Below the pieces are notes generated by a model. The model was not told the DNA's origin and made no database searches. It was given only the letters and a program-made list of their open reading frames with translations. A program made the translations under genes and the position numbers. A stretch of 64,000 bases of DNA from assembly GCA_015956445.1 (NCBI GenBank), contig WIUZ02000027.1:110363-174362 (forward strand), read 5' to 3'. This DNA is from Thelephora terrestris (Eukaryota > Basidiomycota > Agaricomycetes > Thelephorales > Thelephoraceae). Positions 10,302-42,973 of the stretch are shown here, one piece after another. Position 1 is the first letter of the stretch; each line of letters opens with the position of its first letter.

Positions 10302-10499
10302 TGGAAGAAAGGAGTTGAAGGGAATTGTCGTCGGTCCAAGGACACTGGAATGTGGAGAAGGATCGTCTGTGTCACGCTAGGTTTAGAGAGAGAAATGAAC
10401 GAGGGCCGTCAGAAAAACCCAAGTAGTCTTTGGGGCTCGTGAGGTCGGAAAATTGATTTTATAGATCATAATCTCATCTCTCATGTCAACTTTCCCAGC

Positions 10500-15903: not shown

Positions 15904-15979
15904 TGGAACCCACGCCGGGACTCGAACCCGGAACCTTCAGATTAGAAGTCTGATATCATAACCATTAGACAACCTCCCT
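15904..15979 (-). tRNA. tRNA-Arg(TCT)-like sequence, probably an extended primer-binding site
   Basis: On the minus strand the sequence folds as most of a tRNA. It has a D-arm, an anticodon stem TCAGA/TCTGA around loop CTTCTAA (anticodon TCT, Arg), variable AGGTT, and a T-arm CCGGG-TTCGAGT-CCCGG. The 3' acceptor strand is CGTGGGT, then T and CCA. The CCA is present in the DNA, which nuclear tRNA genes do not encode. The 5' acceptor strand (AGGGAGG) pairs at only three of seven positions, so it is not a working tRNA gene. On the plus strand it begins TGG two bases after a TG..CA-type LTR end and precedes the gag frame by about 115 bases, which is exactly the layout of a retroelement primer-binding site. 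Complementarity spans about 69 bases instead of the usual 8-18. Confidence 0.65.
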
Positions 15980-16021
15980 AACCCTCGCGACTTTCCCCCC
16001 TTCCCTCTAAAGCCATCTACC

Positions 16022-18247
16022 ATGCCAACTGGATATTCCCTCTATGATCTCAACCGCCTTATCGAGCACACTGCGGACTATCGGGATATGAATCGCGAAC
16101 AGCTCCACACCTATTACGAGCGATTCCTCTCCATGAGCGACTATCTTGTTGACAATGACGACCTCTGTGACTCCCGATGTGGCACTTTCTATCTTCAAGG
16201 TTTCCCTCACCCAATCCGTGTAGAGATTCGTCAGAGGCTCTCGAAAACAAGGCCCTATGATAAAGTATATCATCTTGATGATGTTCATGAAGCTGCACTC
16301 TTTATCTTCGCCGCCAGGCCTCGCGACGGTCGCGATCCTCCCGATCATCAGCGCCGTGATAGACAATTCGAGGAATTTCTTGCTATGTTTGCTGAACTCC
16401 TTGCTACCAATGCGCTAAATCCGGTCGCTCATCCCTACTCTCAGCGTCTTCCTTCTCCTACTCCAGGAGGAGTAGTTCAAAACCCCCCCCGGTGGAGCCT
16501 AGCCTGTGTCTTCTGCGATTCGCGCGAACATCTTGTTCGCAGTTGTCCAACAGCTGCTCACTACCTTGAGCAGGGATGGATAATCCGAAACAGCTCTGGG
16601 AAACTCGCTTTTCCCACTGGACACTCGATTCCTCAGAGGGTTCCTGGAACAACCTTGCAGGACCTCGTCATCAAGTATTGGGACTCTCGACGTCTTCGCG
16701 ACGAAGAACAGAACCATCGCGACGCTTTTGGGACAGACTCCCCTGCAGGTTCTAACCACAACAGCGGAGTCGACCCTGAGCAGGAGCAGATGGAGTTTTG
16801 GCAAGCTCGTATTGAGGTTCTCACGAAGAGAAGAGAAGAACTGCGCAGGAAAGCTGAGACTAGTCCTCAGATTAGTCCTCCTCGTCACCAGACCCCGCCA
16901 GCATCCCCTCAGCCTCGCGATCCATCCCCTCAGCGTTCTTATCCACCTCCCGAACCTCCCTACCCATCTCCTCAGCATCCCTACCTATCTCCTCAGCCTC
17001 ACGATCTATTCCCTCAGTCTCCCGACCGATCTCCCCAGCATCCCTACTCACCCTCTCAGTCTCCCTGCCCATCTACTCAGTCTCCCTCTCCGTTTCAGCT
17101 GGTGCCGATGCAACTCAACGCTGTCTATGCTGATATCCAACGGAGAAGACAAGAACGAGCCTGGGAAGCTGAGCCTGATTCCCAGACCAGTCCTATCCGT
17201 TGCCAAAACCCCCTAGTACCTCCCCAGCCTTCCCACACCTTCGCTCAGCTTCGCGACGTGTCTCCCGAGCTCTCCTATGTTTCCTCTCAGTTCTACACAT
17301 CCCCTCAGCCTGTCTACGCACCTGAGCCTCCCTACACATCGTCCCAGCCTCCCCATGCATCGCTACAGCCTCCCTATCATCGCGATCATTCTTTTGATAG
17401 CGAGGAGCCCATCGTGAATGTTGAGGAAGAAGACGATCTTCTCGATTCCTACCTTTCCACCTTCTTCGGGCCGGAAGACGCTTCTCCCGACATCCCTACA
17501 GTCGCGAGTCGCGACCCTCCCATCCCTACAACTTCGCTTGAGGTTGTCTCCATCCCTCCTCCCTTCTCCTCTCCCTGTTCCGAATCTTCGTCCAACAGCT
17601 TCCCTACTACCTCTTTCGCCTCTCCCTACACTTCCTCTATCTCTTCCCCACTATCATACATGCCTTCTCCTTCGCTATTCAAGTCTCCCTCATTACTTCA
17701 GTCTCCCTTTACACTCGTAGCCTCCCCTTCCCTATCTTCCTCACTCCACAAGCCAACTTCACATTTCCATCACAATTCCCCTTCCCTATTCACTTCCCTT
17801 CATAGTTCTCCTTCCCTATTTCATTCCCTTCAGGATTCGAGTTCGCTACCTCCTTCTGTTTGCGGTTCTCCGCCTCTAGCCCATCCCTGTGACGATTACC
17901 TTTCCCTATCTACTTCCCCCACTTCCCTACACCACGAATCTTCTCCCTACTCTTGTTCTGGTTCTACTCCCCGTTGTTTCCCACGCGATTTATCTAGTCC
18001 TCTTCACGATTTATGTTATCCCCCTCCCGATCTATCTCTTTCACTTCCCGACTTTTCTCCCTTTTCTGCTTCTCTTCCTCCGTTATTGTTTTTGAGCAGC
18101 TCTTCATCTATTGCATCTGTTCGTAGTCCTACTCCCCAGTTCCCTATTCCCCCAGCAGACCATCGCGATGTTCCACTCCTCCGATCTCCCTTCTCAGTGG
18201 CAAGTCATCTGGACGGCTCCCTTCCTCTCCTGACCACACCCCTTTGA
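16022..18247 (+). CDS. Gag-like protein of a retroelement, 741 aa
   Basis: One uninterrupted frame from an ATG in good context (TACCATGCC). Residues 1-100 form a helical capsid-like region (MPTGYSLYDLNRLIEH, FYLQGFPHPIRVEIRQRL). A zinc knuckle C-x2-C-x4-H-x4-C (CVFCDSREHLVRSC) follows at about residues 161-174. Residues 280-470 are Pro/Ser/Gln repeats (variants of SPQHPYLSPQ), and from about 500 on a Ser/Pro/Leu-rich low-complexity tail. No protease, reverse transcriptase, RNase H or integrase follows, so it is a gag-only or gutted element. It would package element RNA. The coding strand becomes extremely pyrimidine-rich after 16860. The frame is long and open, which argues for recent activity or selection. 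The knuckle makes the gag call fairly safe; superfamily is unknown. Confidence 0.7.
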   Translation: MPTGYSLYDLNRLIEHTADYRDMNREQLHTYYERFLSMSDYLVDNDDLCDSRCGTFYLQGFPHPIRVEIRQRLSKTRPYDKVYHLDDVHEAALFIFAARPRDGRDPPDHQRRDRQFEEFLAMFAELLATNALNPVAHPYSQRLPSPTPGGVVQNPPRWSLACVFCDSREHLVRSCPTAAHYLEQGWIIRNSSGKLAFPTGHSIPQRVPGTTLQDLVIKYWDSRRLRDEEQNHRDAFGTDSPAGSNHNSGVDPEQEQMEFWQARIEVLTKRREELRRKAETSPQISPPRHQTPPASPQPRDPSPQRSYPPPEPPYPSPQHPYLSPQPHDLFPQSPDRSPQHPYSPSQSPCPSTQSPSPFQLVPMQLNAVYADIQRRRQERAWEAEPDSQTSPIRCQNPLVPPQPSHTFAQLRDVSPELSYVSSQFYTSPQPVYAPEPPYTSSQPPHASLQPPYHRDHSFDSEEPIVNVEEEDDLLDSYLSTFFGPEDASPDIPTVASRDPPIPTTSLEVVSIPPPFSSPCSESSSNSFPTTSFASPYTSSISSPLSYMPSPSLFKSPSLLQSPFTLVASPSLSSSLHKPTSHFHHNSPSLFTSLHSSPSLFHSLQDSSSLPPSVCGSPPLAHPCDDYLSLSTSPTSLHHESSPYSCSGSTPRCFPRDLSSPLHDLCYPPPDLSLSLPDFSPFSASLPPLLFLSSSSSIASVRSPTPQFPIPPADHRDVPLLRSPFSVASHLDGSLPLLTTPL

Positions 18248-19536
18248 TTCCCGAAGCTTCCCTATGGTTTCCCTCCCATTCACGAGGCTTCCCTACAGCT
18301 GCCCCCTTCATTTATTCACCGCATCTTCACTCATCCCGAAGTTTCCCTACACCCTTCCTCCAATTTTCGACATCTCCCTACCGCTTGCTTTTGGCTCCCG
18401 AGGTCTCCCTTTGCCCATCCTCTCACCCTATATTGCTCCCCTCCATTCCCTTACTCCCATTTTCTTCGGGATCACATTGGGACGAGCCAGTTGGTATCAG
18501 AAGTCCCAAGGAGTCCTCCCTATTCTTTGGACAACCGAGGACGGTTGTATTCTGAAGTCCCAAGGAGATGACATGCCTCCATTCTCTGGAGTACTCGTCG
18601 GCGACATTCCCTACGTCCCTTTCCCTCGGGATGCTTCGCGATGTTTCGCGACGTTCCTATGCTCTCTATACCTCCCTACCCCTCCCTATGCATCCCTATA
18701 CTTCCCTACATACCCGTATATCTCCCTTTACCTCACTACTCCCTTCCCTATACTAACATACTCGTCCCGATGCTTCGCGACCTTCCCGATGTTTTAGTAT
18801 TCTCCCTATCTCTCACTACCCCCCCCCCCCCGACCTCCCTATATCCCTCTCAACACTACACCATTCGCGACCCCTCCATATATCTTCTCCCGACTTCCCT
18901 ATACCTTCGCGATATCTCCCTACACCATTCCCCTCGATCTCTCGATCCCTATGCTCGATCATTCCCTTTTGGTTCATTTCTCAACCACATCTCTTTCCTT
19001 GGTCGTTCCCTTCGATCCCTCGCCCTCCCTATGTCATAGACTCGTCATTAGGTCTTTTGACATCATTTGGTTCATTCCCTCTTGCTTCCTACGTTCTCAG
19101 AGCCTCCTAGATTAGTATATAAGCCTCTGTATTCGATAGACTCACCAGGGACCAATCCAGGGGACTGATTCCCATGTTTTCCTCTCCCTATCCTTCTCCT
19201 CTCGTCGTCATCGTCTCCCTATAGTCTCCTGCGTCTTCCCTATCGTTCTCGTCGTCATACCTGTGTCCCTGCGTTCTCGTCGTCGTCTCTAGTGTCCTGT
19301 CGTCATCCCGAAGATCCCGACCTCCCGAAGTTCTCATCGTCGTCCCGAAGTTTTCCCTCGTCGTTCCTTTGTCTGTTTCATTGATTCCCTTCTGTTATCT
19401 TTAGTTATCTTTAGTTCCCTCTTGATATCTACTTCTCCCTACACGTCCCGACGTTCCCGACGTTTCACTACATTTCCCTACAGTTCCCTACGTGTCCCTA
19501 CGGAGCTAGGAGGCATCGTACGACCAAGGACCACCT
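18248..19536. other. Pyrimidine-rich low-complexity tract downstream of gag
   Basis: Dominated by C and T on the plus strand, with many TCCCTA and TTCCCTA words and a run of 12 or so C near 18822. Scattered CATCGTCGTC words appear near 19200-19360. TAGTATATAAGCC near 19112 is a TATA-like element that could belong to a 3' LTR. No polymerase domains and no supported gene. Confidence 0.6.
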
Positions 19537-19791
19537 TCATCGACGTTGACAGGGCACCCCATCTTCTCCCCATCGGACTCTAGCCCACATAGCCCCTGTC
19601 CAACGGTTGAGCCATCGGTCGACCTCGATCAGGTCTCGCTGAATGGTGTCGTCCCGTTCCTTCAAGGACTCGACCAACCGGTTGTGTTCTTCGCGCATCG
19701 CTAGCATCTCGCTCTCAAACATAACGCGGAGCGTATCGTTCATCAGGAGCAGCGTCTTCTTCGTGTCCAACGCTTCTGACACTGGGGACAA
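19537..19791 (-). pseudogene. Coiled-coil protein exon fragment
   Basis: An 84-residue frame rich in Glu, Leu and Arg (EREEHNRLVES-like heptads; MREEHNRLVESLKERDD) ending in RWLNRW. The 30-bp repeat shared with 15869 lies inside this frame, at 19570-19599. In style it resembles the coiled-coil exon of the 2763-4027 gene, but the alignment is too weak to call homology. Probably an isolated exon or relic. Confidence 0.35.
19570..19602 (+). repeat. Putative LTR 3' end, 30-bp direct repeat copy 2
   Basis: Exact copy of 15869-15898, followed by CCA. With the first copy it brackets the gag element (3.7 kb apart). Upstream sequence does not match, so the left and right ends are not ordinary identical LTRs. 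Confidence 0.45.
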
Positions 19792-19797
19792 AGTCTA

Positions 19798-20510
19798 GTG
19801 TTCCGGCCCGGTACACTGCAAATACACTGCAAGGAAATGGATAATTTACTTGCACTAATCCTGCTGGGGTCATGTCAATTCCATTCAAAATGTTCCTTAC
19901 CTGTGTGCCTGCAGTTTACTGACTCAGTTATTTTCAAGGACACCCACAGTGTCCCTGAGGTTTCCATCATGTATTTCACCTTAAGTACATCCCAAGTTTC
20001 CATGTTGTGTACCTGCGCAGGACACCGCAATCACTTTTTCCCAGTACATTTAGAGTGTTCCTGTTGTGGTTTCCCTTACCAGTTTCCCTGCCCAGTAAAC
20101 TAACAGTTCATTTCAAGTGTTCCTATATATTTTCCATATGATGTCCCCTGGCTGTTCCACCTAAAATACACCACAAAATTCCCTCGCTGTTTCTTTGTGA
20201 TTTCCCGAACCAGGACATTCACGGTGTTCCGCGAGTGTGACGGAAGTGTGACGGGCACGCCGATCGCGGTTTACCGAGCTTGGACACCGCGGTGGCACCG
20301 CGGTGTCCCGATCGCGTGAACCCGCGGTGTTCCGCGCCGGTTCACCAAAGGCTCATTCGGGGTGTTCCGCGTTGGAAACCGGACATCGGTAAGCCCTCGT
20401 TTCATTAAGAGTGTTCCGACCCGTCTCATCCCCAGTACACCGGTCAGTTCTTTTGGGATGTCCCAAAGGTTTCCCCACCCGGTACACCTCGGGAACACCG
20501 CAACACGAAA
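19798..20510. repeat. Degenerate repeat field with GTGTTCC and GTACAC words
   Basis: GTGTTCC, GTTTCC and TGTCCC recur every 25-60 bases, alternating with GTACAC/GGAACACC. The left half is AT-richer and the right half contains CACCGCGG palindromes (20286-20305). No coding frame is convincing. It looks like an eroded satellite. Confidence 0.5.
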
Positions 20511-20639
20511 ACGACATCAGACGTCGGGTTTGGGTTGGTGTTGGGTGTGTTGGTGGGTGTCGTCGTCGTCGTTACTCTCGTGGTCTGTAGGGAGGTTGGG
20601 AGACATCGTGGTTCATTATTTAATGTGTATGTTAGGTCT

Positions 20640-20830
20640 ATGTTAGAAACATGTAGATATGTCGGAGATAAAGAAAGATATGTTATAAAGATGTAGATAT
20701 GTTATAGAGATGTAGATATGTCGAAGATTAAGAAAGATGTGTTAGGAAGAAGTAGATATGTCGAAGATAAAGAAAGATATGTTAGAAAGATGTAGATATG
20801 TCGATGATAAAGAAAGATAAAGAAAATAAC
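20640..20830. repeat. AT-rich minisatellite, about 40-bp unit, four to five copies
   Basis: Units contain GATGTAGATATGTCGAAGAT then AAGAAAGATATGTTAGAAA. The array directly abuts the broken glucan synthase piece. Confidence 0.8.
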
Positions 20831-20867
20831 GGTCGTTGGGGTTCCCGCGACATTCCGATGTCCGTGA

Positions 20868-21290
20868 AACCGGGTACCTTCTAACGGTCGCCGCGATAGC
20901 CTGGTCCCAAGTCGAATAGAAAATGGCGGAGGACAACTCGTCCATGCGAGCAGGGTACGGGTCGGCCTTCGTTTGAGCACGGAACACAGGGGAATCTAGA
21001 ATGATGTAGGTGAAATTGTCCAGAGTGTGAGCCCCGACCAAGCCAGGGTGGCGTCGTCGACTGCCGACATCCAGGCGATAAATGGCTCGGGAGGAGCAGT
21101 CATGTTGACGTAGCTGGGAGCAGCGGAGTTGGGAGGAAGGCGGTCAAGGACACCATCACCATCGACATCGCCGTAGAAATAGTCGTCGTCCGTCGGCGAG
21201 ATGTGTCGTCCGGAACTCGACGGACCTGGGCCAGGGTTCCCTTGGGCGCCAGCCTCCGACAACTCATCGATAGGCGTGATTGGTGGGGGT
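20868..21290 (-). pseudogene. ags1: Alpha-1,3-glucan synthase fragment with internal deletion
   Basis: Two blocks typical of fungal alpha-1,3-glucan synthase lie side by side. The first (21262 to about 21045) has [32 protein letters not shown] and [14 protein letters not shown]. The second (about 21041 to 20870) has [20 protein letters not shown] and [18 protein letters not shown], the start of the glycosyltransferase domain. In intact enzymes a membrane segment and the first glycosyltransferase residues separate these blocks. Here that stretch is missing and the second block is in another frame. After RRYP the match ends at the minisatellite. The enzyme makes cell-wall alpha-glucan at the plasma membrane; this copy cannot. 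No normal start or rest of the gene (normally over 2000 aa) is present. Confidence 0.85.
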
Positions 21291-21479
21291 GAGGTCGAGG
21301 GTGGTAGAGTTGCTCAGCGGGGACGGGGGAAGATTTCCTGTGGCAAAAGTCGAGCGCTTCGGTCTAGAGATAAGCCAGCAAGACTTGAATGGCGGTGGAG
21401 CGTCCGGAGCGAGCTAACGAAGGGGAGTCAGTCTAAGAAAATCAAGTCGATGAGTTTCAAACGCGCCGTCTCCTAAGTC

Positions 21480-22640
21480 GATGGCAGGTAAACACGTACC
21501 CCCGCTGACGCCCACAATCCCATCCAAACCCCTAAACCCCTTCGAATCCTACATGTGTACGGGCCTGGAGAGGGGCCGGCATCGTCAGTTGGCTGTGGGT
21601 AGCCATGCGGGTCGGAGGCACGTTGACGAACCGTGGTGCTCTAGGTAACAAATTCCACTTGAGGGTGAGGGTGTGGGTGATGCGTGGGGCGAGAGCGGGC
21701 GAAGAAGAGAGAAATGGGACGACAGGCAAGAGGAATGAGACGATGAACGCGATGTGTTGAAACCTGTCGGTAGTGGCCTCGGCTCGATTCTTGAGCTGTT
21801 CGAGGCATCACGACGTCAAAAGGGACGAAAATGTGATGACGGTGGGGTGGAAAACCGATGTGGGGGGTACGTACAAGCCAAGGGGACGAGATTTGGAAAC
21901 CCAGGAGTCGAAAGGGGGCTGTTTCTGAATCGCCCCGGTTGAGCGTAGGGCGGCGAATCGACTACCACAAAGCACCGTCGGAGGGTGAGAGAAAGCGAGA
22001 CGTCCATGTTTTACGACGCAGTTCTGCGCCGATGGGGGAGGATAAGGGGAACAACGAAGTTTGTCGTTCAAATTTTCATCGAATCGAAGGTCCAGCGATA
22101 TTCCCACGCACATGATGGCTGCCGAAAACCGAGAATAACATCAGAATAACATGTATTAAATGGTATCGACTGGTCAGAGAGATGAGGAAAGAAGTCTTGG
22201 GAGAGGAAGGTGTACAGGAAGATTTAAACGACACCAAATCAGAGAGAATACAAACAGGGAAGAGGGTTACTGACGCGGGGAGGCATATAGACTAAAAAAA
22301 AACAGGAAGAAATTGAGTCCACGGGATATAAAAACCTCGTTCGAGAGTCCGAGAACAGGGAAGGAACAACGAGGATTCTGGAAGAGACGAATCCAAAGCG
22401 GTCCAGCCCTTACACGCATTGAATCGCAAACTCTGGAGGGATGCAAATTCCGCTGTTCGAAATCGCCTCGGACGCCAACGCCCTCTGCTTCCAGCGTCGC
22501 TTTCGGCACGTTCTCTATCGTGGGCTCTAAGTTGTGCTGATGTTCGAGCTTGCGCTTCCTGCTGCGCCGCGCCGTTAGGGTTTTCTGTCGTCGTTTGGCT
22601 TCGAGGGCGGACAGCTCGTTCGTGGTTGAAGGAGCGAGGA
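21480..22640. repeat. Family R repeat, copy R1
   Basis: Shares, with differences, the whole order of R2: a region with GCGTGGGGCGA near 21680, a region with GAGAAAGCGAGACGTCCATG near 21987, TTCCCACGCACATGATGGC near 22101, then a nearly identical block (22137-22600 against 23437-23890). R1 is the older copy in its first half. Confidence 0.75.
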
Positions 22641-22745
22641 TGACTTCCTCGTGGTCAGATTACGACGAAGCACGCTTCCTCTTGCTCGCGAAGACGGCAG
22701 GGAGTTCCTTGCGAGACGTAGCCGACTCGGAAGGAAGGAGCGCTG
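22444..22745 (-). pseudogene. Gcn4-like bZIP transcription factor fragment, copy 1
   Basis: The frame reads SESATSRKELPAVFASKRKR, then an in-frame TAA (22660-22662), then NELSALEAKRRQ and TARRSRKRKLEHQ, a textbook bZIP basic region (N-x7-R replaced here by T-x3-ARRSR-type core) running into a leucine zipper start. In mushroom Gcn4/Cpc1-type activators of amino-acid starvation genes the core is normally NTLAARRSRKRKLEHQ. Here N and one A are changed (KTLTARRSR). No activation domain is seen upstream. It is one of three partial copies, all on the minus strand of R repeats. The stop and the altered basic region point to a non-functional copy. Confidence 0.7.
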
Positions 22746-23905
22746 GAGTTGGGTAAATTGAGGCGATGAGCAGGTAGAAGGGGAGTCTAAGCGCGGTGAG
22801 ACTGGCGACAATCCTGTGAGGCCAGACGGACGGTACTGACCACGGACTATGAGACGTGGGGCGAAAGCGGATGGATGAGGAAGTGCAAAACAGTGGACGA
22901 TAGGTGAGGGAATGAGACGAGAACGCAGACGATTGTTTAGAACTCGTCGTCGATATCCCTATCATTCAATAGGCACACATTAGATAAAGCTGGAAGGGAG
23001 TGCCAGGATACTTACTGTCTAGAGGAAGACCGTCTGCTCCTCCAGCTTTCCTGACTTCTTTCCGATCGTAGATTCTCAGGGTCGGAGTTGTTCGGGGCTG
23101 CACCAGTGGCCGTGAATGGCAAAAGGGACGAAAGGCATGTAATTGAGAGGTTGGAAAATACGACGCAAGGGAATACGAGCCAAGGAAACGAGCTTTGGAA
23201 ACCGAGGAGTCGAAGGGAGAGGGGGGTTGCAGAGTTGCCCCAGTCGAGAGTGACAGCAAATCGGCCATCACGAAACACTGTTGAAGAGTGAGAGAAAGCG
23301 AGACGTCCATGTTTTACGACGCCGTTCTGCGCCGATGGAGGAGGATGAGGGGAACGACGAAGTTCGTCGTTCAAATTTTCATCGAATCGAAGGTCCAGCG
23401 ATATTCCCACGCACATGATGGCTGCCGAAAACCGAGAATAACATCAAAATAACATGTATTAAATGGTATCGACTGGTCAGAGAGATGAGGAAAGAAGTCT
23501 TGGGAGAAGAAGGTGTACAGGAAGATTTAAACGACACCAGAGCAGAGAGAATACAAACGGGGAAGAGGGTTACTGACGCGGGGAGGCATATAGACTAAAA
23601 AAAAACAGGAAGAAATTGAGTCCACGGGTTATGAAAACCTCGTTCGAGAGTCCGAGAACAGGGAAGAAACAACAAGGATTCGGGAAGAGACGGATCCAAG
23701 TTAAATCGCAAAATCTGGAGAGATGCAAATTCCGCTGCTCGAAATCGCCTCGAACGCCAACGCCATCTGCTTCCAGCGTCACTTTCGGCACGTTCGTTCT
23801 CTAGTGGTCTCTGAGTCGTGTTGATGTTCGAGCTTGCGCTTCCTGCTGCGCCGCGCCGTTAGGGTATTCTGTCGTCGTTTGGCTTCGATGGCGGACAGCT
23901 CGTTT
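22641..23905. repeat. Family R repeat, copy R2
   Basis: Tandem to R1. Its first 350 bases (GCGAGACGTAGCCGACTCG, near 22705) match 26880-27240; its middle (23030-23440) matches 27230-27640; its end (23437-23905) matches R1. The right edge falls inside the bZIP region, where cullin sequence begins. Confidence 0.8.
23700..23905 (-). pseudogene. bZIP fragment, copy 2 (basic region only)
   Basis: Encodes NELSAIEAKRRQNTLTARRS and the following RKRKLEHQ. The basic region is closer to the expected consensus than copy 1 (it keeps N). A four-base insertion just after breaks the zipper frame. On its 5' side the sequence switches to cullin at about 23905. The missing N-terminal half matches copy 3 at 26825-26960. 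Confidence 0.7.
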
Positions 23906-24530
23906 GTCTTTGCTCAGGCTCATATCTAGAGTGAAGAATGGAAAGCGTCAATGACAATCCATCGGCCATACTCTGACCACGCACCCGTGAACATGCGTTG
24001 GAGCTTGTTCTTGTATTCGAAACCGCACGCCTCCTTCAGTTTCGAGATCATGCTCGCTTCAGCCTCGTCCGATGCCGACACTCCGTGGATAAGGCGCTTG
24101 GAGGGTTTAGTGGTGTAAAATGTCTGGAAGACGTCCTTGTCCTCGAGGTACTTGAATGATACCATCATACCATCTGAAAAGCGGATCGGGTCGTGTTCCG
24201 CAAAGGTAGCCAGAGAAGGTACGCACCACTCGGTTCAAGGCGCTCTCGAGATCCTCTTCCTCAGCCATCTTGTTGTTCTTCCTCAACAAAGCATCCGCGT
24301 GCTTAGCCAACAATTCAGGAGATTTGGTACTCGAAGTGCCAGTAGCGGCGTTCTTGTTGACAAAATCTCTGCAGGCCTTGTCCAGACTAGCGACAAAACC
24401 GGCCTCGCCTTTGAAGCTCCTCTTGACCGTCTCTGAGCTCTTGCGATGGACCTCAAGCAATGCGTCCACGTAAGCCTTGGGATCAACTTCCGTAGCGGTG
24501 CCGCCCTCGCCAACGAGCCTCAAGACTGCA
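23905..24530 (-). pseudogene. Cullin-1 fragment, three exons
   Basis: Exon A (about 24520-24250) encodes VDPKAYVDALLEVHRKSSET, EAGFVASLDKACRDFVN and [18 protein letters not shown]. After an intron starting GTGCGTACC comes [34 protein letters not shown] and [18 protein letters not shown] second intron (GTGCGTGG...CTCTAG) rejoins DMSLSKD in frame. These are hallmark segments of the cullin scaffold of SCF ubiquitin ligases. An eight-base duplication (ATGGTATG then ATGGTATC) at the start of the middle exon breaks the frame. Both ends are cut: at the left by the bZIP repeat, at the right against the DUF2415 gene. Introns are kept, so this is a DNA-level fragment. Confidence 0.85.
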
Positions 24531-26431
24531 GCCAAACTCGCCCGGCTTGCATTCGCAAGGGCACGCAGGGTCGTCATAGAGCTGGTCGTGACTGGGTTTA
24601 TCGTCCGCATTCCTCGTGGTCGGCCCAACGTATGGTGGTCCGGGGGATAGGGTCGGGGTGGTAAGTGAGGGGGATGAGAAGGTGTGTGATGGAGGAGTGT
24701 AAGTCGGCGATGCAGCCCTCGATCCAGCAGCAGAGCTCAGGCACTCCGTGTCCAACTCATCAACTTCCATGCCATCTCCCCGATCTCCTTGTTCGTCCAC
24801 ATCGGTCATTTCCATGTCCCCATCTCCGTCTTGGTGGGACTCCGACCGTCTACGCGCGGGCCTGAGTCTCGTTCGGGTTGTGCGCAAACCGTGCCTGCGT
24901 AGGAGCCTACTAATGTCCTCTTCTTCCCTGGTAGACCCCAGCCTAGGAACGACAACCACACCACCATCGTCCAACTCTTCGTCAGAAGTAAAGGGCCCGT
25001 CCATAAGATGCAAGCCCATAGAGTTGGTCGTAGGAAGGGCTGGGATGGCAGACTCGGATCTGGTGGACCGATGGCCAGGTCTACCGGAATTCCGGAGTCA
25101 ACTTATGGTCGGATCGGGTACCCGGACTATCTGTTCAGTTTCAAACGTCCGGGCGTCGATAAAATGCAGCAGAGATGTGTGCTGCAAGGTTCCATTGTCA
25201 GCGGATCAGGTAGAGAACGAGAGAGTGGAAGAAACTCACCTCAGTGAAAACAAGTACTTCCTTGCCATCAGCACCTTCAGGAGAGAACTTGATGCTTCGA
25301 ATACCCCATCCCGGTGCCCGTGATCCGCCTCGACTCCAATCCCAGAGGTCTTCCTCATACATGTATCCACTAGCCTCCCCTGTAGCCCTTCTTTCCTTCC
25401 CCCGCGTGCAATCAGTTTCGAGGACCTTGAGTGGCTTTGAACTGCGAACATCCCAAATAACCGCTACGCCTTCTTGACTTGCCACGGCAAACTTCATTCC
25501 ATCCGAATACGATGTCGAAAACGAGGCAGGTAGGGAGGGCTGAGGGTACTGGGGAGAGTAGTATTGATGGGTGAAAACCGATGGCGTATATGGTACAAGC
25601 GAGTACTTCGCAATTGATTCGAAAGAGAGACGGGAGAAGCCGGGTATGTGGTGGAGGTACACTTGCGGTGAATCGCCAACTGACAAAAGGGTTCGGCCAT
25701 CAGGAGATACAGACGCTGATGGATCGTTATGAGATGCAGCCGGTCGCATATTTGGAAAGTGACTCACAGTGGTTCACGGGAACGTCTATCCGCAGAACTC
25801 CAAGGTCCTTTAACCTGGAAGCCGCAGGGGAGCTGTCCGACGATCGGATGTTTACCTCGAAGAATTTGACTGAACAATCGTTGTTGCTGACTGCAACTCT
25901 CGGTTCGACGCTGCTGGCGTGTTAACCTTGGTCAGGCTCAGCGAAGTCAACATAACGGAATTGTTAATGGAGCCTTGAAGTTGAGTTTGGTGCTGCCAAT
26001 GAGGGCGAGAGGACCGGTGATGGGGAGGCGACGAAGAAGTGGATGAGGATGGGGACAAAGAGTGTAGAGATAAGTGGAGTTCTGCATCTTGTCCACCCGC
26101 TGCAAGGAGTGTCGTTGTGGAGTCGGGGAGGCGCAACGATGAGAGGGTGTTTGGGGTGAACGGGAGGTTCGCGATCGCTCGCTTCGAGCCCGAACGGAAA
26201 AGATTCTGCTCTAATATTGAACGGCCTTGCACATAATTCACTACGCCACGTTCGTGAGGGCAAATAAGTAAATCTCGGAGTTGACTTGATGGACGCGGAG
26301 AACATCGACGTGAGCGGAAGGCGATTGCAGAGGAAGGTGAGGGCAACGTACACATGACCAGTCGTGATTTCTGTAGAAACCGAAGATGTGGGGGTGGGAG
26401 GTGAGAGTAGAGATGGCCTTTGGACAGTCAT
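24530..26431 (-). pseudogene. DUF2415-type WD40 protein, 3'-truncated
   Basis: From the ATG at 26431 (MTVQRPSLLSPPTPTSS) the exons encode DLLICPHERGVVNYVQGRS, LPDSTTTLLAAGGQDAELHL, NNSVMLTSLSL, SVSPDGRTLLSVGDSPQVYL, KFAVASQEGVAVIWDVRSSK, WGIRSIKFSPEG and HTSLLHFIDARTFETEQIV. These match the fungal WD40/DUF2415 family as I know it, including the linker VPRLGSTREEEDISRLLRR. An in-frame TGA lies at 25098-25100 between these parts (possibly a CGA after C-to-T change; a 41-base intron is the alternative). The usual last WD motifs are missing and the sequence passes into cullin near 24530. The exact junction is uncertain. Function of the family is poorly known. Confidence 0.65.
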
Positions 26432-26819
26432 GGTTGGTCGGAGAGCATATAGGTGTAGGATCGATCCGTTAATACTGGTCGCTCTCGAAAGTTTCGTAGA
26501 TCTGTAGCTGGCTGTGAGTTCACTGGTTGCCGGGAACGAGGAAGACGGGGAAGCGACAGGGCGACGCTAGTTGTACCCAAGGATATCTGTCGGACAGAAG
26601 AGCGCAACTGACCTTGGAGAGGTTCAACGGGGGCCTGGAGGAGGCGATGGAGCTCTTGAAATGGGAGATATGGAAGTCGAGGGTGGGTTGGCTTGCCAAG
26701 GCTGCAGAAATAGTCGGAGGGGGGAGGTGGGTTTACGGTGGTTGGGAGACGACGCAAGGTGGATTGATCGAGACTGACTTGAGCACGACCAGCCTTTTTT
26801 ACATGTTCCTCGAACTTAT

Positions 26820-28326
26820 TCCAGAGCAGCGAGGGTGTCTTCCTCGTTATCGGATTCCAACGAAGCGCGCTTCCTCTTGCTCGCGAAGACGGCAGTGAGT
26901 TCCTTACGAGACGTAGCCGACTCGGAAGGAAGAAGCGTTGGAGTTGGATGAGGTGAAGCGATGAGCAGGTCGAAGGGGAGTCTAAGCGCGGTGTCTAAGC
27001 ACGGTGAGACTGGCGACAATCCTATGGGGCCAGATGGACGGTACTGAACACGGACTATGAGACGTGGGGCGAAAGCGGATGGATGAGGAAGTGCAAACAG
27101 TGGACGATAGGAAAGGGGATGATTGTTTTGAACTCGTTGTCGGTGTCCCTATCATCCAATAGGCACGCATTAGATAAGGCTGGAAGAGAAGAGAGTGCCA
27201 GAGATACATACTTACTGTCTAGAGGAAGACCGTCTGCTCCTCCATCCTTGCCTGACTTCTTTCCAATCGTGGATTCTCAGGGCCGGGGTTGTTCGGGGCG
27301 GCACCAGTGGCCGTGAATGGCAAAAGGGACGAAAGGCATGTGATTGAGAGGTTGGAAAATACGACGCAAGGGGATACGAGCCAAGGAGACGAGATTTGGA
27401 AACCGAGGAGTCGAAGGGAGAGGGGGTTGCAGAGTTGCCCCAGTCGAGGATGGCAGCAAATCGGCCATCACGAAACACTGTTGAAGAGTGAGAGAAAGCG
27501 AGGCGTCCATGTTTTACGACGCCGTTCTGCGCCGATGGGGGAGGATGAGGGGAACAACGAAGTTCGTCGTCCAAATTTCCATCGAATCGAAGGTCCAGCG
27601 ATATTCCCACGCACATGATGGCCGCCGAAAACCGTGAATAACATGTATTGAGTGAAAGCACTACAAACACAGGTTATTTCTGAGGTTCTAAAGAAGAATC
27701 GCGTCGATAGCGATGTGTCGGAAGCGTTGACGACGCATACATCGAGACCTTGAACGTTGAACGCCCGGATCCCTCTTCGGAACCAGGGGGTCCCATCAAG
27801 TTCCCACAATCGCTCCTCCGGCTGACGCGATGGCCGGCAAACCCTTGATCACACGTATTTCAGAATGATATTTGACCCAGATGGCGCGATGAGAAAGAAA
27901 CTGATGCAATTGCGTGGGTCCAGCGGCGTATAAAGAAGAACAGGTTGTGTACATAGAATCGGCATTGAGCTACGTGCCTTCACAAGTATGAAACCAAAGG
28001 GTGCGAGGGAGACACAGACTCTCAAACCCTCGCGTCAGATCGCTACAGACCGCCGGCCAAACCCGACACGACATCTTCAGCGGCATAGAGAACAACAGAT
28101 CCGAATCGGATGCATAGTTGCACGAACGCCAGCGTGATTCGAGAGGAAAAGGTCAAGATCTGGGACGTAGGTTAGCACGTCGCGTCAATATCAGTGCGTC
28201 GGGATTACCTCGCCTACATCGGGGATTCTTCCAATTTGCCTCTGCAATATGATAACCGATGCTACAAGCAGGGTGACAATTACCCAACACTTTCGTGTCA
28301 GGAATCCATGGCGCGGCTGGCCAATT
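26820..28326. repeat. Family R repeat, copy R3
   Basis: 26820-27640 matches R2 (22660-23440). 27644-28326 is a further block (B) that matches 62213-63047, with a 152-base difference (present at 62444-62595, absent here at 27874). R1 and R2 carry a different block in the position of B. Confidence 0.8.
26825..26960 (-). pseudogene. bZIP fragment, copy 3 (N-terminal half)
   Basis: Encodes SESATSRKELTAVFASKRKR then ASLESDNEEDTLAALE and a stop. The first part matches copy 1 upstream of its basic region and lacks the stop seen there. The match ends at about 26830, where other sequence, leading to the DUF2415 gene, begins. With copy 2 it forms two halves of one original unit. Confidence 0.65.
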
Positions 28327-28372
28327 GATCAGTATTTGAGTCCCCTGCCGAAAAAACTGCCACTCACCTCAC

Positions 28373-29605
28373 CCTGGGGATGGGGTGCTCGTCGTGCGGT
28401 CCAAACCTTGATCGCGACACGATCCGCTGTTACAATGCTGTACTGGTCGTTTGAAGCATGGTGGGCCTTCGCATGCAAGTGAATGGTGAGTATATTGAAT
28501 CTTCAAGCAAAACCGGCACATACCATCACGGGGACACAGTTGCCGGAAATTACTGGTGGACGCATTAAATTTGCCACACAAGATTTAAACCAAAATAAGT
28601 ACCTGTGTGCTTCAACTCCTGGATCTTGCGCTGAGTGACGAGGTCCTTGATTATTGCCACACCGGGCGCAACGCAGGATAGTGTCGCTGCACCCCCATTG
28701 ATGAGGAGGAATTGGGATTCTTCGCCGTCCGGTTGAGGCTCACTGCCGTAGATCCTGCAACGGTTGAGTTTATGGATCTCTTGTTCACTTGCAGATGCGA
28801 TAGCCTTCAATAGAGGTAGTCCGGAGTAATCGCTACGTGATTTACCATGTTAGTGTTAGTCAAAGATCGGCGAGCAGAAAGGTGCACCGACACTGTCGCT
28901 GTTTGGAACGAAGTACGTAGACGTGAATCGTCATCAAACTCGAGCGCGATTGACCTATCGGCAAAGGAAGTGAGGTCGGGTCTTGGGTATGGGATCGTGT
29001 GGCTCACGCAATCTTCTGACGGCAAAACGTGACAACGAGAGTGTTGTCGGGGGTGAAAGAAATGGTCCTCGGAAATGGAGGAACCGGCCTCCCTGGGTCA
29101 CTTGCGAAATTGAACCGGCTTGATACATTGGCAATGAAGCGAAAACCACCTTGAGAAATATGAGTTCACTGCTCCAATCTATCAACGAACGAAGCGCACT
29201 TGTGTCCCAGATCCTCCGAAACGCAAAGACATTCGGACCCACAGATAACGCAAGTGTCTTGGACTCTGCGTCCAAGGCCATCGCAGTTATAGGGAATGAC
29301 CCGCGGAACAGATTGTTCTTGACGCCTTCCACCAGTTTCTTACCCTCGAGATCGATCTGGTAATGGATGAAGCATCCATCACTCAACCCGACGTAGAACG
29401 CCCCAGAAGTTTCCCAAACAAGAGCTGTGGGTCCGGTAGGCGTAAAAGCTGAAAGAACGGAGTGAAATCCGGTGCATCTGTCAAGGATGTGTAGCCAGGA
29501 TTGATGTTCTCCGACCGCAAGGAATCTACCACATGGGGAGAACTCGATGAATGCTATGCGACTCCTGGTGGAGGGGACAGTGAAGTTTAGTTCGTAGTGG
29601 GCCAT
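28373..29605 (-). CDS. WD40-repeat protein A
   Basis: Starts at the ATG at 29605 (MAHYELNFTVPSTRSRIAF). The first exon encodes two WD-like blades (IEFSPCGRFLAVGEHQSWLH; TALVWETSGAFYVGLSDG). Later exons give FRFIANVSSRFNF, ISFTPDNTLVVTF, then QFLLINGGAATLS, and end with YSIVTADRVAIKVWTARR before a stop at about 28373. It is a paralogue of WD40 B and C, which share the order N-terminal blades, middle domain, last blade. Unlike those it ends right after the last blade and has no hydrophobic C-terminal tail; the R3 repeat lies just beyond, so the 3' end may have been lost. Exon limits between 29150 and 28800 are not settled. Partners are unknown. Confidence 0.55.
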
Positions 29606-30277
29606 CTTTCGTTGGGATGAGGAAAGAGAGAGAGAGAGGTGTTTAGCCACTCACGCATCGTGGCTCTCTTTTATGCTCTCTTCAAAGCGTCAAGGGTCGT
29701 GCAGTCGTCACGACCTCGCGTGACAGGGCCTGGGGTTAGACGGAGCGTTGGACGTCTTGAGCACCTTCTCGAAACAAGGGCCTGCTGGATTTGTTGCCCA
29801 TGGAGAAAGAACAGATCACATGACTATTGCGCGAGCTGAACAGGTGGGGAAGCGGGCGTGCGCAACACTTTGACAAAGATGAAAAAAAAAACTAAGAGAC
29901 AGATAGGAAGGAAGAAGGACATCGTCGGATAGCGGAGTTAAACCCAGTGTCCCTCTGATAAACTCGCATGTCCCCATTGATGATGATAACAACATTGTTA
30001 CCTCGAGAACCCACGCGAGTACGCATGCTCCACTGTGTAGCAAAATCTAAAGCCCCGTTGCGATGCATGGAATGTTGGTGGTAGGCATGTGAGAAGGGCG
30101 ATAAGATCTTCGCATCTTCAGCGTTGTTGGAGCGGGATACAGGGGCGGCTGGCATGCAGTTCAAGGTTGTGGAAAGCCGCATTGTGCGGAAACAGATCTC
30201 ACTATTGTTCCTATGGACGTAAGCTACCCCACGAGGTTGGCCCTCAGTGCGAAACGATCGTCGCAAACCAGATAAAG

Positions 30278-31724
30278 CTAGAGTCGCGCAGTAGGCGCGT
30301 GAGCTCGTACGATCCGAGTGTAGATGCAATCTACGCACCAGAGGAACACGACGGAGAAAGTAAACAAGAAGGCCAACGACGGCAATGTGGGACCCTGTGG
30401 CTTCTCAGCGATATGAGCTTCCGCCAAGGAAGGATCACAAGCCTTGGAGTCAGAGGCGACACTCTGGCTGCAACCTTGACCAGACTCTCTCCATACTGCA
30501 ATTACGGTCTGCGAACCAAGTTCCGATGTCCCTGCTGCCAAAAGCGGTCTCCCGTTAGATTTTGAGGTATAAGCCTAGACGATTGGTGAGGGCGATGGAG
30601 ATAACCATCCGAGTTCGTGCTCACAAGTGCTTGTACGATCTTTCCATCTTTAACAAGTTACAGGTGTTATTATCACAGCACCTCCAATGCTACTCACCTT
30701 CCAGCTCCAGTGTTTCAATGCCAATAGCAGGGAAGGGACGTATGACTCGCACAGCACCGCAGCTTCCGCCACTAATCCAAGAACCTGTGCCATCAAAGAT
30801 GATTGGTGCGACGATGTTGTCTTCAATCAACATCCTGAATGAGTCAACCAAGCGCTGGCTTTTGATGCTGTACCAATCAACCCCGTCGAATAGGTTAGTT
30901 ACTGCAATTGTCCCGTTATCTGTTGATAAACAAGACCGGCCACTTGGAGAAAGTCAGGGTGCGTGAAGATCGACAGGCGATTGAAGTTGCAACAAACATT
31001 TGACATGACCGTGGTGTGATCTGCCAAACAAGAGATAGAGAATTCCTGTCCCAACACCTGTAAAGGGGTTAGTTGGTTGCCGCAGAGCGAGAGGTGGTAG
31101 AACTTAACGTAATACCGTGATGGAGGTACGAAACGACGACCGAGTTTGGCTCTTGGAGGAAATGAACTGATTGAGCTGCTTGGTCGGGGTGTTTGCTGGT
31201 GTGAAGGTGGATGAAGCTGGGAGGAGGGGGTAAACGACGAGTGTTATACCACGATAAAGAATCCTCGTCCCGGGTGCTATAATTGGTCAGAACGACATCT
31301 TTCCCAGATCCTAAGGCAAGGACGTTTTGTCCAGAATCGTGAGTCAAACAATGAATTGGCCCGGGACTCTTGTCCGTCCAGATCTTGAGGTCACGCTGTA
31401 GAGAGATTTATTCTTTAGTTTAATTACGATAGCAGTTCCATGGCTCTTACCTGAGGACGATTGGTTTGGAGGGTATGAACGTCGCCACTCCTGAAGCCAC
31501 AAAAGAGAAGGCCTTCGACCTGAGGGTGCCAAACCAACGACGTTGAGGGCGAAGCATCGATGAACGTCCGGAGGGGCTTCCAATCCAAGGTCGAGAATAT
31601 CGTTACGGAACCATCTTCGCATCCGCTAGCAAGAACCTTTCCGTCCGGGGAAAATTCTAAAGCTGAGATCGTCTCCTTTAGTCCGGCGATGGTTGTTTCG
31701 CGCTCGTATCGGCGCGCCGACATG
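30278..31724 (-). CDS. WD40-repeat protein B with C-terminal membrane segment
   Basis: Starts near 31724 (MSARRYERETTIAGLKETI). The first exon has ALEFSPDGKVLASGCEDGSV and SLVWHPQVEGLLFCGFRSGD. An intron (GTAAGAGCC...CTACAG) leads to DLKIWTDKSPGPIHCLTHDS. Later exons include NGTIAVTNLFDGVDWYSIK and AVRVIRPFPAIG. The last exon ends with a hydrophobic stretch LAFLFTFSVVFLWCVDCI and a short basic tail, stop at 30278. So it is a beta-propeller anchored in a membrane by its C-terminus. Domain order and the tail match WD40 C at 45559-47042, and its neighbour upstream (coiled-coil D1) also has a paralogue next to WD40 C. I cannot assign a pathway. Confidence 0.6.
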
Positions 31725-31949
31725 GGAGCTTTGGATGACGATAAGCCACGCGACACGACACGCGCGATTGCAGAGTAAGACGTTGATCAATCGATCAAAC
31801 CCCGACAAATCGAGAAAATGAGTTCAAAAGTTAAAGGTATTTAAGGTATAAACGAAGAAAGACTGGTTGACTAGAGACGTGATTTATGAAGTGACGGAGT
31901 TATAGAATAGGTGGGGTAAGCTGGATATTTGACTACTAGCCATTGGACT

Positions 31950-33227
31950 TTAGGCGGCGTCCCCCAACCTCCTTCGCTTCAACGGGGCGGGCGGGATCCG
32001 AGTGTTATGAAGTCCCAAGTGATTGACGCTATTTGTCTGCTCAAGAGGCCTCTTCTTTGAGTGACTGGAGGAACGATTCACGGGTATGGCCATAGGGGTT
32101 GTTTGCGAGGGTCCACCGCCAGTAGTAGGTTGTTGCGCCTGCAAAAATTGTGTAGAACCCCGCTGACGAGCGCTGAGGGCCTTCAAAATCTAAAGAAAGT
32201 TTACCATAAAAATTGCAATGCTGATATCGAAGGATACGCACAACCTCCGGTCCAATGATTGGAAAGTCGCCGTCCTGTAGAGAAAATGAGTATAGGGAAG
32301 GGACGGGACCAATGTGGAAAACACCTCTAGGCAGATAAAAAAGGGCTCAGCGGTGGGCTGCGATTGTTATTAGATCAGGCATAGATACAGATGGGAGATG
32401 GGGAAAATAGACGCACACCGAGAGGGGTCATGAGTTGTCTCGTCAGGCGTTGAAGGTCGTCCGCTAGTACTGCATGACTCCTGAGCATCGTTTTGTAACG
32501 CTTCCACAAAGCCACATGTTTTTGGAACATCTGCAAAGAGATACCCGCCGTGATCTCACAGGTGGACTTCACGTGGCGATCCCATAGTTCATCGTAGGAG
32601 GACCGGAGTAACCGAGCTTCGACATTAGAACCGAGAGTCCAGCGCCAGTCGGGGCTGGGACTCCCCTTCCCGACAAAAGAAGTGGTGTCGGTGATCTGTT
32701 GAATGATTCCAGACATCTCTGCCTCTATCTGTTGATTTTCCGATCGAAGTTGAGCTGCGACTGCGTGAAGTTGAGCCGTAACGGCCGAGATGCGGTCTGA
32801 AACTTGATTCGTCGACAGGCTGCATATCTTTCAGAAAGGGGAGAAACTTCGGAGCAAAGAGCCTACCGGTCACCAGGAGATGGGTGGACGCGGCTCGGAA
32901 ATGGTAAGCCTGGGTCCAGCGTCGACTCCTTAATCGGACTGTGAAAGAAAGTCACCGCCCGACGTCAAGTATTAGAATCAGAGATCGTTTACGGTGTGGT
33001 ATCAGCGCTACTAGGGCGACATAGTAAGCTCCCACCGTCACCAGTGGGAAAACAGCTACCCACATGTCACTGTCAACGTCGATGACGATACTAGATGCGT
33101 CTGAAGCGCTGCTGCTCTTAGACATCAGATGGCCAACATCGTTGTTAGGTCTGGAAGGAGTTGTTGAAGAGAATCCCGTGGGTGAAGGTGATGTTGGGAC
33201 CCACGTCTTGTTATGGCCTGCGTTCAT
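31950..33227 (-). CDS. Coiled-coil protein D1 with basic C-terminus
   Basis: Exon 1 starts at 33227 (MNAGHNKTWVPTSPSPTGFS) and carries NDVGHLMSKSSSASDASSIV followed by IDVDSDM. A central exon (about 32825-32390) is helical: QVSDRISAVTAQLHAVAAQL, then VEARLLRSSYDELWDRHVKS. The last exon is Gln/Ser-rich and ends with a basic cluster (PPAPLKRRRLGDAA) that could be a nuclear localisation signal, stop at 31950. The first exon is clearly paralogous to that of D2 (49159-47732), where the matching piece reads NDVDHLMSESSSAMDTSRIA. It is co-oriented with WD40 B, about 225 bases upstream of it. No known domain recognised. Confidence 0.5.
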
Positions 33228-33287
33228 TTCCGGTGTTGACTAGGAGGAAACGAAGTGATGAAAAGTGGAAGAGGAAGTTGGGGGGAG

Positions 33288-33345
33288 CGAGAGGCGAAAC
33301 GAGAGGCGTAGGCTATTTATCTTGATGACCACGTGGGTTGACACG
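33288..33345 (-). promoter_or_regulatory. Promoter block of D1, shared with D2
   Basis: On the plus strand: GAGAGGCGAAACGAGAGGCG, then GGCTATTTATC and GACCACGTGGGTTG. The same words in the same order lie upstream of D2 (49217-49316). CACGTG is an E-box/G-box palindrome and GATAAATAG (minus) is TATA-like, about 90 bases before the ATG. Confidence 0.5.
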
Positions 33346-33536
33346 CAATGAAAGAGCGAAGATCCCGTTAACGTTGATATTGAGTACTTGAGTGCTTGTT
33401 GATGCTCTGACACCGTTTTTTGATAATAAAAAAGTTGCGCACAATCAATCACATTACTTCAATCATGGGCCCACAACCCTTATCTAGGAAAGGAAAGAAG
33501 ACGGAAACTAACAAGTACCACACAGTCAGCGAAAGA

Positions 33537-36500: not shown

Positions 36501-37459
36501 CTGGAGATACGATGTTGTGCGCGGGTCCAAGTCCATTCTGTTGACCACCGTACGAGGGTCCTTCGGGAGTAGATCGATAGTTTTGGTGGGGACTCGTGCT
36601 GCCACCAAGATACTCTGGATGCCAGCGATCATCACCGTAGTTGCACGCCTGGGTGTCCGAAAAAATAGATGGAGGATAAGGATGGTTAGGAAGGACGTGG
36701 AAACTACGGGATCCTCAGGGAGCGAATTGTTGAAATAGGAACCTGATTTTAAGTTCTTTGAGAATACTTCAAGAAACTTGTACGGTACTTACCCGTATCG
36801 ACAACGCGATAGCCATGTCGGCGAGCGATTGACCCATCCCTTTGACGATTCCACTCCAATTCTTTATGACGCTCCATCATCGTCAATGCCTCGTGTACCC
36901 TGGCGAGCAGACAGTCCCGGGTATGGGACACAGTATGTTGTTTAAGGACCCTAAGGATCTCGCACAGCCGACCCTCGTTTTCGAGATACGCCGCGTTTTC
37001 TCTTTTCTCCGGATCCAAGGCATACGGCTGGCGGTTCGGCATGCCCGCCTCGGAGGTCGATGGATATCGGTATTGGAGCGTAGGTGAGGGACTCAGAGCA
37101 AACACCAGTGAGTGATTAATTGGTGCCCACGTACACCGATGAGAGGTCTCTGCTTCCAACATAAAATACAAGTCATCTAAGTGGGCTTGAGCGTGAAAGT
37201 CGAAAGGGTGAGAGCTTTGGTCGTTGGACACTGGAGGAGGAAGGTGTTGAGCTTGGGGTTCGGCAGGGGGTGTGTGATTCAACACATGTGTCGCAACGTT
37301 TTTCGTGAAGGTGTCGAGGGTCTGAAGCCGAAGATCGTCCCTCCGGTGGTTGGCAGTGGTAGACTTTGAAACCAATCCGCCCTCCCCTTCATAGGATTGG
37401 GATTCCGAATCAAAAGTGAGGCAGTGCGACCTGCACATACACCGCACCAGGCTGCTCAT
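33537..37459 (-). mobile_element. CACTA-type (Tnp2) transposase gene
   Basis: The N-terminal exon (from 37459) opens with CMCRSHCLTFD and STTANHRRDDLR, the usual start of mushroom Tnp2 proteins. The main exon (36635-35247) has VVNRMDLDPRTTSYLQCPAC, FSLGADSFHPLGSLEAKQS, FWKGVFYTRTYKFPSGR, then LIPLVCDMLAARQVAGFGS and DSMHAAFLGLFQTHCRKVW, all typical of the Transposase_21/Tnp2 catalytic region. Next come a SAP-like piece (TKKDVLQALCQDRRLDDKGE), LPSWMSPAPPNWGTAARGKL (34805-34344) and a C-terminal exon to 33537. The gene has at least four introns, and I see no stop inside the catalytic exon, so it may encode a working transposase that cuts and pastes the element. I looked for CACTA..TAGTG ends around 33.2-33.5 and 37.5-37.7 kb and found none I trust. 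Confidence 0.8.
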
Positions 37460-37782
37460 GGGTTCGGGAGGAATAGGGTAGGGGAACCAGAATCGTTATC
37501 GATCAGATCAAGGATGAGTGCGTCGAGCAACTCCCCGTCTTTTTAAATACGCGCATATAGTCATATTTTTCAATGACTTGTGGATGTAGCGATTGCAGTT
37601 TCCGCCTCCGAAATTTTCAAAATTAAACGATACTCATGCCTTTAGAACGTGCGACCTCGAACAGAATATCAGCAAGCTCGAGCCTCCAGTCAGCCGTTCC
37701 AAATAGTTCAATTCAACAAGATCTTTATTAGCGGCTGAAAGACCCCCTCCCTTACGTTTGTTGGGATTAAATAATTGGGGAA

Positions 37783-42910: not shown

Positions 42911-42973
42911 GCGATATGTTTTATTATTTCCTTTTTCACAGTACGCTGAGACATCCGCTCAAGCACTCGAACC

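Follow-up and report, generated by a model that had tools for sequence, protein, structure and literature searches.

CACTA elements leave a 3-bp target-site duplication (TSD), Mutator elements and Pack-MULEs a long one of about 9 bp, and Helitrons have no terminal inverted repeats (TIRs). How TIR transposons acquire host DNA is still debated, and gap filling, fork stalling with template switching, and tandem insertion with re-mobilisation have all been put forward. Here we discuss a cluster of host gene fragments in a 64,000-nucleotide stretch (the window) of Thelephora terrestris, which corresponds to positions 110363-174362 of contig WIUZ02000027.1 (labelled C20 here) in a genome of 40.6 Mb and 60 contigs. 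The cluster is probably part of the ~7.9-kb terminal inverted repeats, or arms, of a giant EnSpm/CACTA-type transposon, and its pieces would have been taken up by microhomology-guided templated repair and then transposed.

Fragment capture by CACTA elements has been published for plants (PMC8903248). For animals, the description of Pack-TIRs reports a median microhomology of 2 bp, gap-filling and FoSTeST models, and 59.8% intrachromosomal captures; the multicopy fly Pack-TIR is FB4, whose TIR is described as repetitive and rearranging (PMC8277862). EnSpm elements are characterised by CAC..GTG termini, 3-bp TSDs and related transposases, and Plavaka elements by TGT..ACA termini with a 2-bp TSD or CATCA..TGATG termini with a TSD of 2-3 bp (PMC12730594). 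Helitrons are described with no TSD, a subterminal hairpin and a CT-type 3' end, and those of Pleurotus are reported as not capturing host gene fragments (PMC4289320).

The Thelephora element holds host-gene fragments from five parent loci between its ends, as Pack-TIRs do. In plants, Pack-TYPE elements such as Pack-CACTA count as non-autonomous and carry their pieces between the TIRs, whereas here an estimated ~52 kb include a tnp2 frame and 7.9-kb arms, and the pieces are nested within these arms. Because the tnp2 frame is present, a strict plant Pack-TYPE definition may not apply. The CACTG ends do not match those of Plavaka, the 3-bp TSD is not the long one of Mutator and Pack-MULE elements, and inverted ends with 3-bp TSDs are foreign to Helitrons. 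By its EnSpm ends and TSD, and possibly by its transposase, the element resembles the fungal EnSpm/Plavaka group (CMCT clade), but this is described for a TET/JBP gene, and the available part of the account does not mention host-gene fragments in TIRs (PMC12730594). Template switching with short microhomology would be a feature in common with animal Pack-TIRs, yet the pieces here come from other contigs and are nested serially, and nesting goes unmentioned in the relevant passages of that source (PMC8277862). The transduplicating DNA transposons of Pyrenophora tritici-repentis likewise hold a host gene or fragment between the TIRs of a fungal DNA transposon, but they concern an ascomycete and, in the sections at hand, a Tc1/Mariner element of 46 members and domains of histone H3, with long arms and nesting not mentioned there (PMC3538342). 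Long-TIR Mutator-like elements have acquired sequence in extended TIRs, but belong to another superfamily and are smaller, with sizes given as 1-1.4 kb (PMC3310237). As far as the accessible text of these sources reaches, Pack-type capture is known from plants, animals and one ascomycete, while the giant size, the nesting in long arms and the EnSpm ends in a fungus are new; in the accessible open-licence literature we found no fungal EnSpm-type element of giant size whose multi-kilobase arms hold host fragments nested in series.

Element ends, target sites and arms

The 24-base terminus of the element (CACTGGGGACAAAG...), searched genome-wide with up to three mismatches, occurs four times, and the reversed-pattern control not once. 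The occurrences mark four copies: at window position 19780 on C20, at C16:619889 (+), at C56:1446788 (+; C56a) and at C56:1532877 (-; C56b). All of them start at the identical base, CACTGGGGACAAAGTCTAGTG, with unrelated flanks in each; the ends of C56a and C56b are mutually inverted, and inverted 5'-CAC..GTG-3' termini are present at the four ends found.

At site 1, the C20 flank runs up to CTTCTGA and the C56a flank starts with TGAGTACATCC; joined through one TGA they give 864 bases, of which 662 bp match an uninterrupted copy of a dispersed repeat at C56:1491208-1491869 without gaps at 94.1%, and a second copy at 91.4%. This target repeat appears to be part of a long terminal repeat (LTR) element. 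At site 2, the C16 flank runs up to TACAGA and the C56b flank starts with AGATGTGTCC; joined through one AGA they give 1,009 bases, which match a homologue over 977 columns at 73.7%; the frame, which we take to be gypsy-like pol, is open across the junction and meets stops farther on. Two target sites are thus restored from the paired flanks, which means two insertions, one with the 3-bp duplication TGA and one with AGA. A 3-bp TSD is therefore present at both sites, the ends of each coming from different contigs. Small relatives with CACTGGGG ends number 11 in the 330 kb examined (~10 kb of it N), after 13 of 24 rows were dropped as cross-pairings or inner pairs; ten have identical 3-bp TSDs, and in one the TSD is one base off. 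Judged by its ends (CACTGGGG..., 3-bp TSD), the element belongs to the known EnSpm superfamily. The stretch C56:1446788-1532877 was also considered as a simple single element of 86 kb and rejected, since its two flanks have no common TSD.

Within each site the arms are nearly identical, at 99.78% between C20 and C56a (site 1) and 99.90% between C16 and C56b (site 2) over the 4.8 kb that C56b has kept. Across sites, the main aligned blocks agree at 98.9-99.1% and the first 1.2 kb, which has one 40-bp gap, at 95.6%; blocks under 900 bp are unlisted in these arm comparisons. Contig C20 stops at the final base of the window, so that the size of its copy, ~52.5 kb with 7.9-kb inverted arms, is an estimate, in which the visible 19780-64000 (44.2 kb) are completed by C56:1455095-1446788 (8.3 kb) on the premise that the unseen part equals that of C56.

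The interior holds a transposase region with a tnp2 match (PF02992, 36.8 bits against a cut-off of 28.6). The frame lies within the segment in C20, in C16 and, interrupted by insertions, in C56, whose interior differs from those of C20 and C16 by later insertions near 34.4 kb. Among the matches listed, relatives of the tnp2 frame outside the element are only 67-75% identical, which makes a recently nested copy from a multicopy family look unlikely. The interior was searched against the genome over 17.2 kb (28330-37700 and 53330-61150), and no listed match of at least 90% over 100 bp lay outside the element copies.

Nested gene pieces and their parents

The gene pieces are genuine, and every one matches a gene elsewhere in the same genome (Table 1), with E-values of the piece-to-parent alignments from 3.9e-11 down to 0. 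The arms hold six fragments or copies of host genes, which trace to five parent loci (C8, C56, C15, C45 and C34), and all pieces within 20868-26960 lie on the minus strand. Parents were judged from open reading frames (ORFs) and Pfam, the velvet parent over 1.6 kb. A single parent locus was found per piece, with 40 of 335 candidates scored for the alpha-glucan synthase piece, and with the bZIP piece queried except for its middle, about 22280-22650. Introns are retained, as the pieces align to their genomic parents without intron-sized gaps; in the cullin piece a 49-nt GT..AG intron can be read by eye.

The alpha-glucan synthase pieces are 92-95% identical overall to their C8 parent, and ~518 bp of one open parental exon are absent between the two parts. 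Pfam finds Glyco_transf_5 in this parent; the fuller name alpha-1,3-glucan synthase follows a preliminary description of the window. The bZIP pieces are 86-88% identical to C56:175727-176303, a parent region that forms the end of an open ORF (C56:174322-176058, 579 codons), where PF07716 (bZIP) falls slightly below cut-off. The whole cullin source is C15:144393-145057, at 96-97% identity. The C45 gene gives only a weak WD40 match in Pfam and none to DUF2415 at E up to 5, and velvet PF11754 (E 5.5e-4) stays below its cut-off.

The pieces are nested: the WD40 piece lies inside the cullin piece, which lies inside one of two bZIP copies. The two sides of the cullin piece are contiguous in C15, with 0 bases lost and at most 2 bp of ambiguous overlap where the WD40 piece cuts it. 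The cullin piece in turn cuts bZIP unit 2 of a tandem pair, with ~6-9 bp lost as judged by eye, and both R unit 1 and the bZIP parent retain the uninterrupted order at this point. In the tandem units, termed R, 21872-22623 matches 23174-23907 and 22630-23444 matches 26825-27644, at 88%. Divergence from the parents follows the same order as the nesting, with 12-14% for bZIP, 3-4% for cullin and 2.2-2.6% for WD40. Capture of cullin before WD40 follows from the nesting, the step in divergence being too small to prove the order alone. The direction of C/G-to-T/A changes, as a sign of RIP (repeat-induced point mutation) or methylation, showed no clear bias.

The four arms found carry the same set of pieces wherever sequence remains. 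The velvet piece is additional and was seen in the right arm of site 1 only, where it extends in C56 to at least 1454860, the end of the parent stretch compared; past it the right arm is taken up again at C56:1454562 (window 27552) and continues as far as the terminus. The uninterrupted left arms represent the empty site for this insertion, and in general the pre-insertion sequence can be taken from a parent, from a sister unit or from a sister arm. A foldback (palindromic) insertion of 3.6 kb in the C56b arm (C56:1528980-1532614) replaced 20047-22883 (2.8 kb) and thereby removed the alpha-glucan synthase piece and the first bZIP.

The preliminary description, made from the letters of the window, had read the cluster as minus-strand fragments of host genes captured at the DNA level by a mobile element, and the retained introns and genomic parents bear this out, with a parent locus located for each piece. 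What it counted as three bZIP pieces are two copies, one divided by the cullin insertion, and its DUF2415 label gives way to the weak WD40 match. It had further regarded R as a dispersed repeat, possibly the element itself. In the searches made, R copies are confined to the arms and right-arm junction of the giant element and to the bZIP parent, so R as a mobile element was rejected in favour of a bZIP-bearing tandem unit within the long inverted arm. No transposase had been seen in R; R, however, is not the element, which has a tnp2-type frame ~8 kb from the cluster. As for other copies carrying other pieces, the right arm of site 1 has the extra velvet piece, and otherwise the four arms found share one set, which in C56b is reduced by two pieces. 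An origin by simple deletion within a local group of genes is ruled out, because the parents lie on five contigs.

Table 1 Features of the window, with positions counted from its first base; matches are to other contigs of the same genome.
Feature	Position	Strand	Match or remark
Septin fragment, in 25.1-kb element	6193-6567		= C1:2593396-2593770, 93%; PF00735 in parent
Target-site duplication TGA, left copy, in dispersed LTR-type repeat	19777-19779		C56a flank starts TGA
Transposon terminus CACTGGGGACAAAGTCTAGTGTTC	19780-19803	+	4 genome occurrences, 3 forward and 1 reverse
Left long inverted arm, 7,865 bp	19780-27644	+	right arm of site 1 (C56:1446788 onward), 99.78% over 7,776 bp
Alpha-1,3-glucan synthase fragment, part 1	20870-21039	-	= C8:294328-294497, 94.7%
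Alpha-1,3-glucan synthase fragment, part 2	21038-21187	-	= C8:295016-295165, 92.0%
R unit 1 (uninterrupted; tandem period 1,302 bp; borders approximate)	21872-23173		self-comparison
bZIP fragment copy 1 (3' coding end and downstream)	22164-22733	-	= C56:175727-176303
bZIP fragment copy 2, first part	23467-23907	-	= C56 bZIP parent
Cullin fragment, first part, with intron	23906-24537	-	= C15:144434-145057, 95.9%; PF00888
WD40-gene fragment within cullin fragment	24537-26789	-	= C45:2227064-2229319, 97.5-98%
Cullin fragment, second part, separated by WD40-gene insertion	26788-26830	-	= C15:144393-144435
bZIP fragment copy 2, second part, separated by cullin insertion	26824-26928	-	= C56 bZIP parent
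Transposase region	33537-36788	-	tnp2 PF02992 in 35250-36788; DUF4218-like 34346-34964, below cut-off
Inner arm border, second copy, rearranged (27644-28327 and 27343-27612)	62213-63317	+
Right arm inner end (= 27644-27550, inverted)	63329-63423	-
Velvet gene fragment, interrupts right arm at 27550/27552	63421-64000	+	63421-63999 = C34:922438-923020, 96%

Neighbouring elements and further observations

A separate element of 25,136 bp (C20:101095-126230, ending at window 15868) has an imperfect 29-bp TIR, a 6-bp TSD (CCATCG), an integrase-like frame (PF24764) and a weak HTH_21. At least six further copies exist on C1, C34, C12, C58, C59 and C4, mostly 97-99% identical and some broken by insertions. 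The septin fragment lies in this element (its parent was examined over 1.3 kb), together with a coiled-coil-like gene piece (9617-10380, 82%). The preliminary description had mentioned the septin and velvet pieces together, as lying beside other repeats; velvet does belong to the giant transposon, septin does not. A frame at 327-944 (-) of the 25.1-kb element may encode something akin to a TET/JBP-type dioxygenase, with no Pfam match at E 0.01. For IS3EU elements, TIRs of over 30 bp and TAYGG ends are described (PMC12730594); the TSD length is alike, but TIR length and end bases differ, and the likeness of the 25.1-kb element to IS3EU is not proven. The 428-bp piece at 9090-9517 (94% to C34:602792-603219) looks inserted, because its neighbours sit only 2-32 bp apart at three other loci. 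Between the 25.1-kb and the giant element, each of which splits it on one side, lies an LTR-type element (15962-19779) with what we take to be a gag-like frame.

Inside the giant element, 40336-43077 and 50597-53332 form a 2.7-kb inverted repeat of 99.3% identity, which is at least partly present in C16 and C56 as well. JmjC-like, RING-like and WD40-like frames (58361-59425, 44669-45193, 28955-31786, 45940-47117) are possible cargo genes, and the stretch at 55.9-57.1 kb has 15 listed relatives of at least 700 bp at 77-84%.

Acquisition of the pieces and alternative explanations

How did the pieces enter the arms? Five junctions, scored by eye, have 2, 1, 2, 0 and 3 bp common to both sources, and at the near junction of the velvet piece CCC is common to both. 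The score covers junctions between two identified sources and so leaves aside the outer edges of the bZIP and glucan synthase pieces and the far end of velvet; also left aside are two internal rearrangements, the middle of the glucan synthase piece (~2 bp) and 63044-63049 (6 bp). In a simulation with random breakpoints on the real sequences, the mean total was 3.4 and a total of 8 was reached in 4.4% of 20,000 draws (P=0.044); this was adopted in place of a negative binomial null (P 0.0036), which was too generous. The captured pieces have no clear TSD of their own and overlap their surroundings by few bases or none, which agrees with templated repair or with template switching at stalled forks. 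In such a scenario an arm would suffer a break or a stalled fork, and its repair would copy in DNA from an unrelated chromosome, with matches of 0-3 bp as a guide, an event that may have been repeated several times. One arm with captures could then have been copied to, or homogenised with, the other; exchange of this kind after capture is suggested by the same nested set in both site 1 arms. Thus loaded, the element would have moved on, to the LTR-type site and to the gypsy-like pol site at the least. Its fragments are passengers, for which we claim no function.

Other origins account for part of these observations. Filler-DNA repair unrelated to the transposon, at a break-prone segmental duplication with the element as mere passenger, agrees with junctions that resemble end-joining or template switching and with local rearrangements at 62213-63423. 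The pieces, however, lie in arms between defined transposon ends, with none listed in the 17.2 kb of interior searched, and we regard this origin as improbable; as an explanation of dispersal it is refuted by the paired TSDs, since both sites carry the pieces with matching TSDs and the pieces therefore moved with the element. Plain segmental duplication was rejected because the four copies share their first base, while their flanks differ and can be matched up as two target sites, and the same start base and paired sites rule against a mosaic of pericentromeric duplicons. C20, C16 and C56 could also be alleles or misjoined contigs of one locus: C20 and C16 end within the element, and C56 links the outer ends of both sites. 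Yet the two sites differ in target and TSD, and the single parent locus seen per piece, with 40 of 335 candidates scored for alpha-glucan synthase, suggests that the assembly is not generally doubled, which leaves such an artefact quite improbable.

In the tandem-insertion model published for Pack-CACTA and other Pack-TYPE elements (PMC8903248; PMC13317346), two elements inserted close together in tandem are fused by aberrant excision, and the hybrid takes in the genomic DNA enclosed between them. Small CACTGGGG elements do insert within an arm, on C16, but the model predicts DNA of the insertion locus bounded by element ends, and the pieces come from different contigs, are nested in each other and have no CACTG end at the junctions examined, so that it is a very improbable source of them. 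The preliminary description had likened the cluster to captures by Helitrons or Pack-MULE-type elements and had considered an undescribed element possible, all of which yield to the EnSpm assignment. Helitrons do capture gene fragments, notably in plants (PMC6431247), but inverted CACTG repeats with 3-bp TSDs refute them as the carrier and leave them next to no probability.

Several points weigh against repair-mediated capture by one transposing element. The microhomology signal is weak, with five junctions read by eye, a P of 0.044 and one junction without overlap, and the age difference between cullin and WD40 is small. No contig holds the whole element with matching TSDs. C56 links the outer flank of site 1 to that of site 2 via one interior, with mismatched outer triplets, and of the four arms C20, C16 and C56b all border the interior on its 27.6-kb side and only C56a does so on the 64-kb side. 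These joins conflict with two simple elements; recombination between elements, two mixed nuclei or a misjoin are the candidates. The tnp2 gene may be the element's own or that of a nested element.

A more far-reaching idea, which we hold only tentatively and consider rather unlikely, is that the long inverted arms are a dedicated capture zone: being prone to hairpins, they would repeatedly break or stall, each repair would add a host fragment, and copying between arms would fix and spread the insert. If true, the element would be a serial recorder of host DNA, its nested inserts a dated log of captures, and its mode of growth distinct from the tandem-insertion model of Pack-CACTA. Because the captures are nested, the parents reside in the same genome and the pre-insertion sequence is available, a single locus shows the capture order, the junctions and the relative ages. 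In a fungus that is probably a mushroom-former, an EnSpm-type element joins those known to have captured fragments from several sources.

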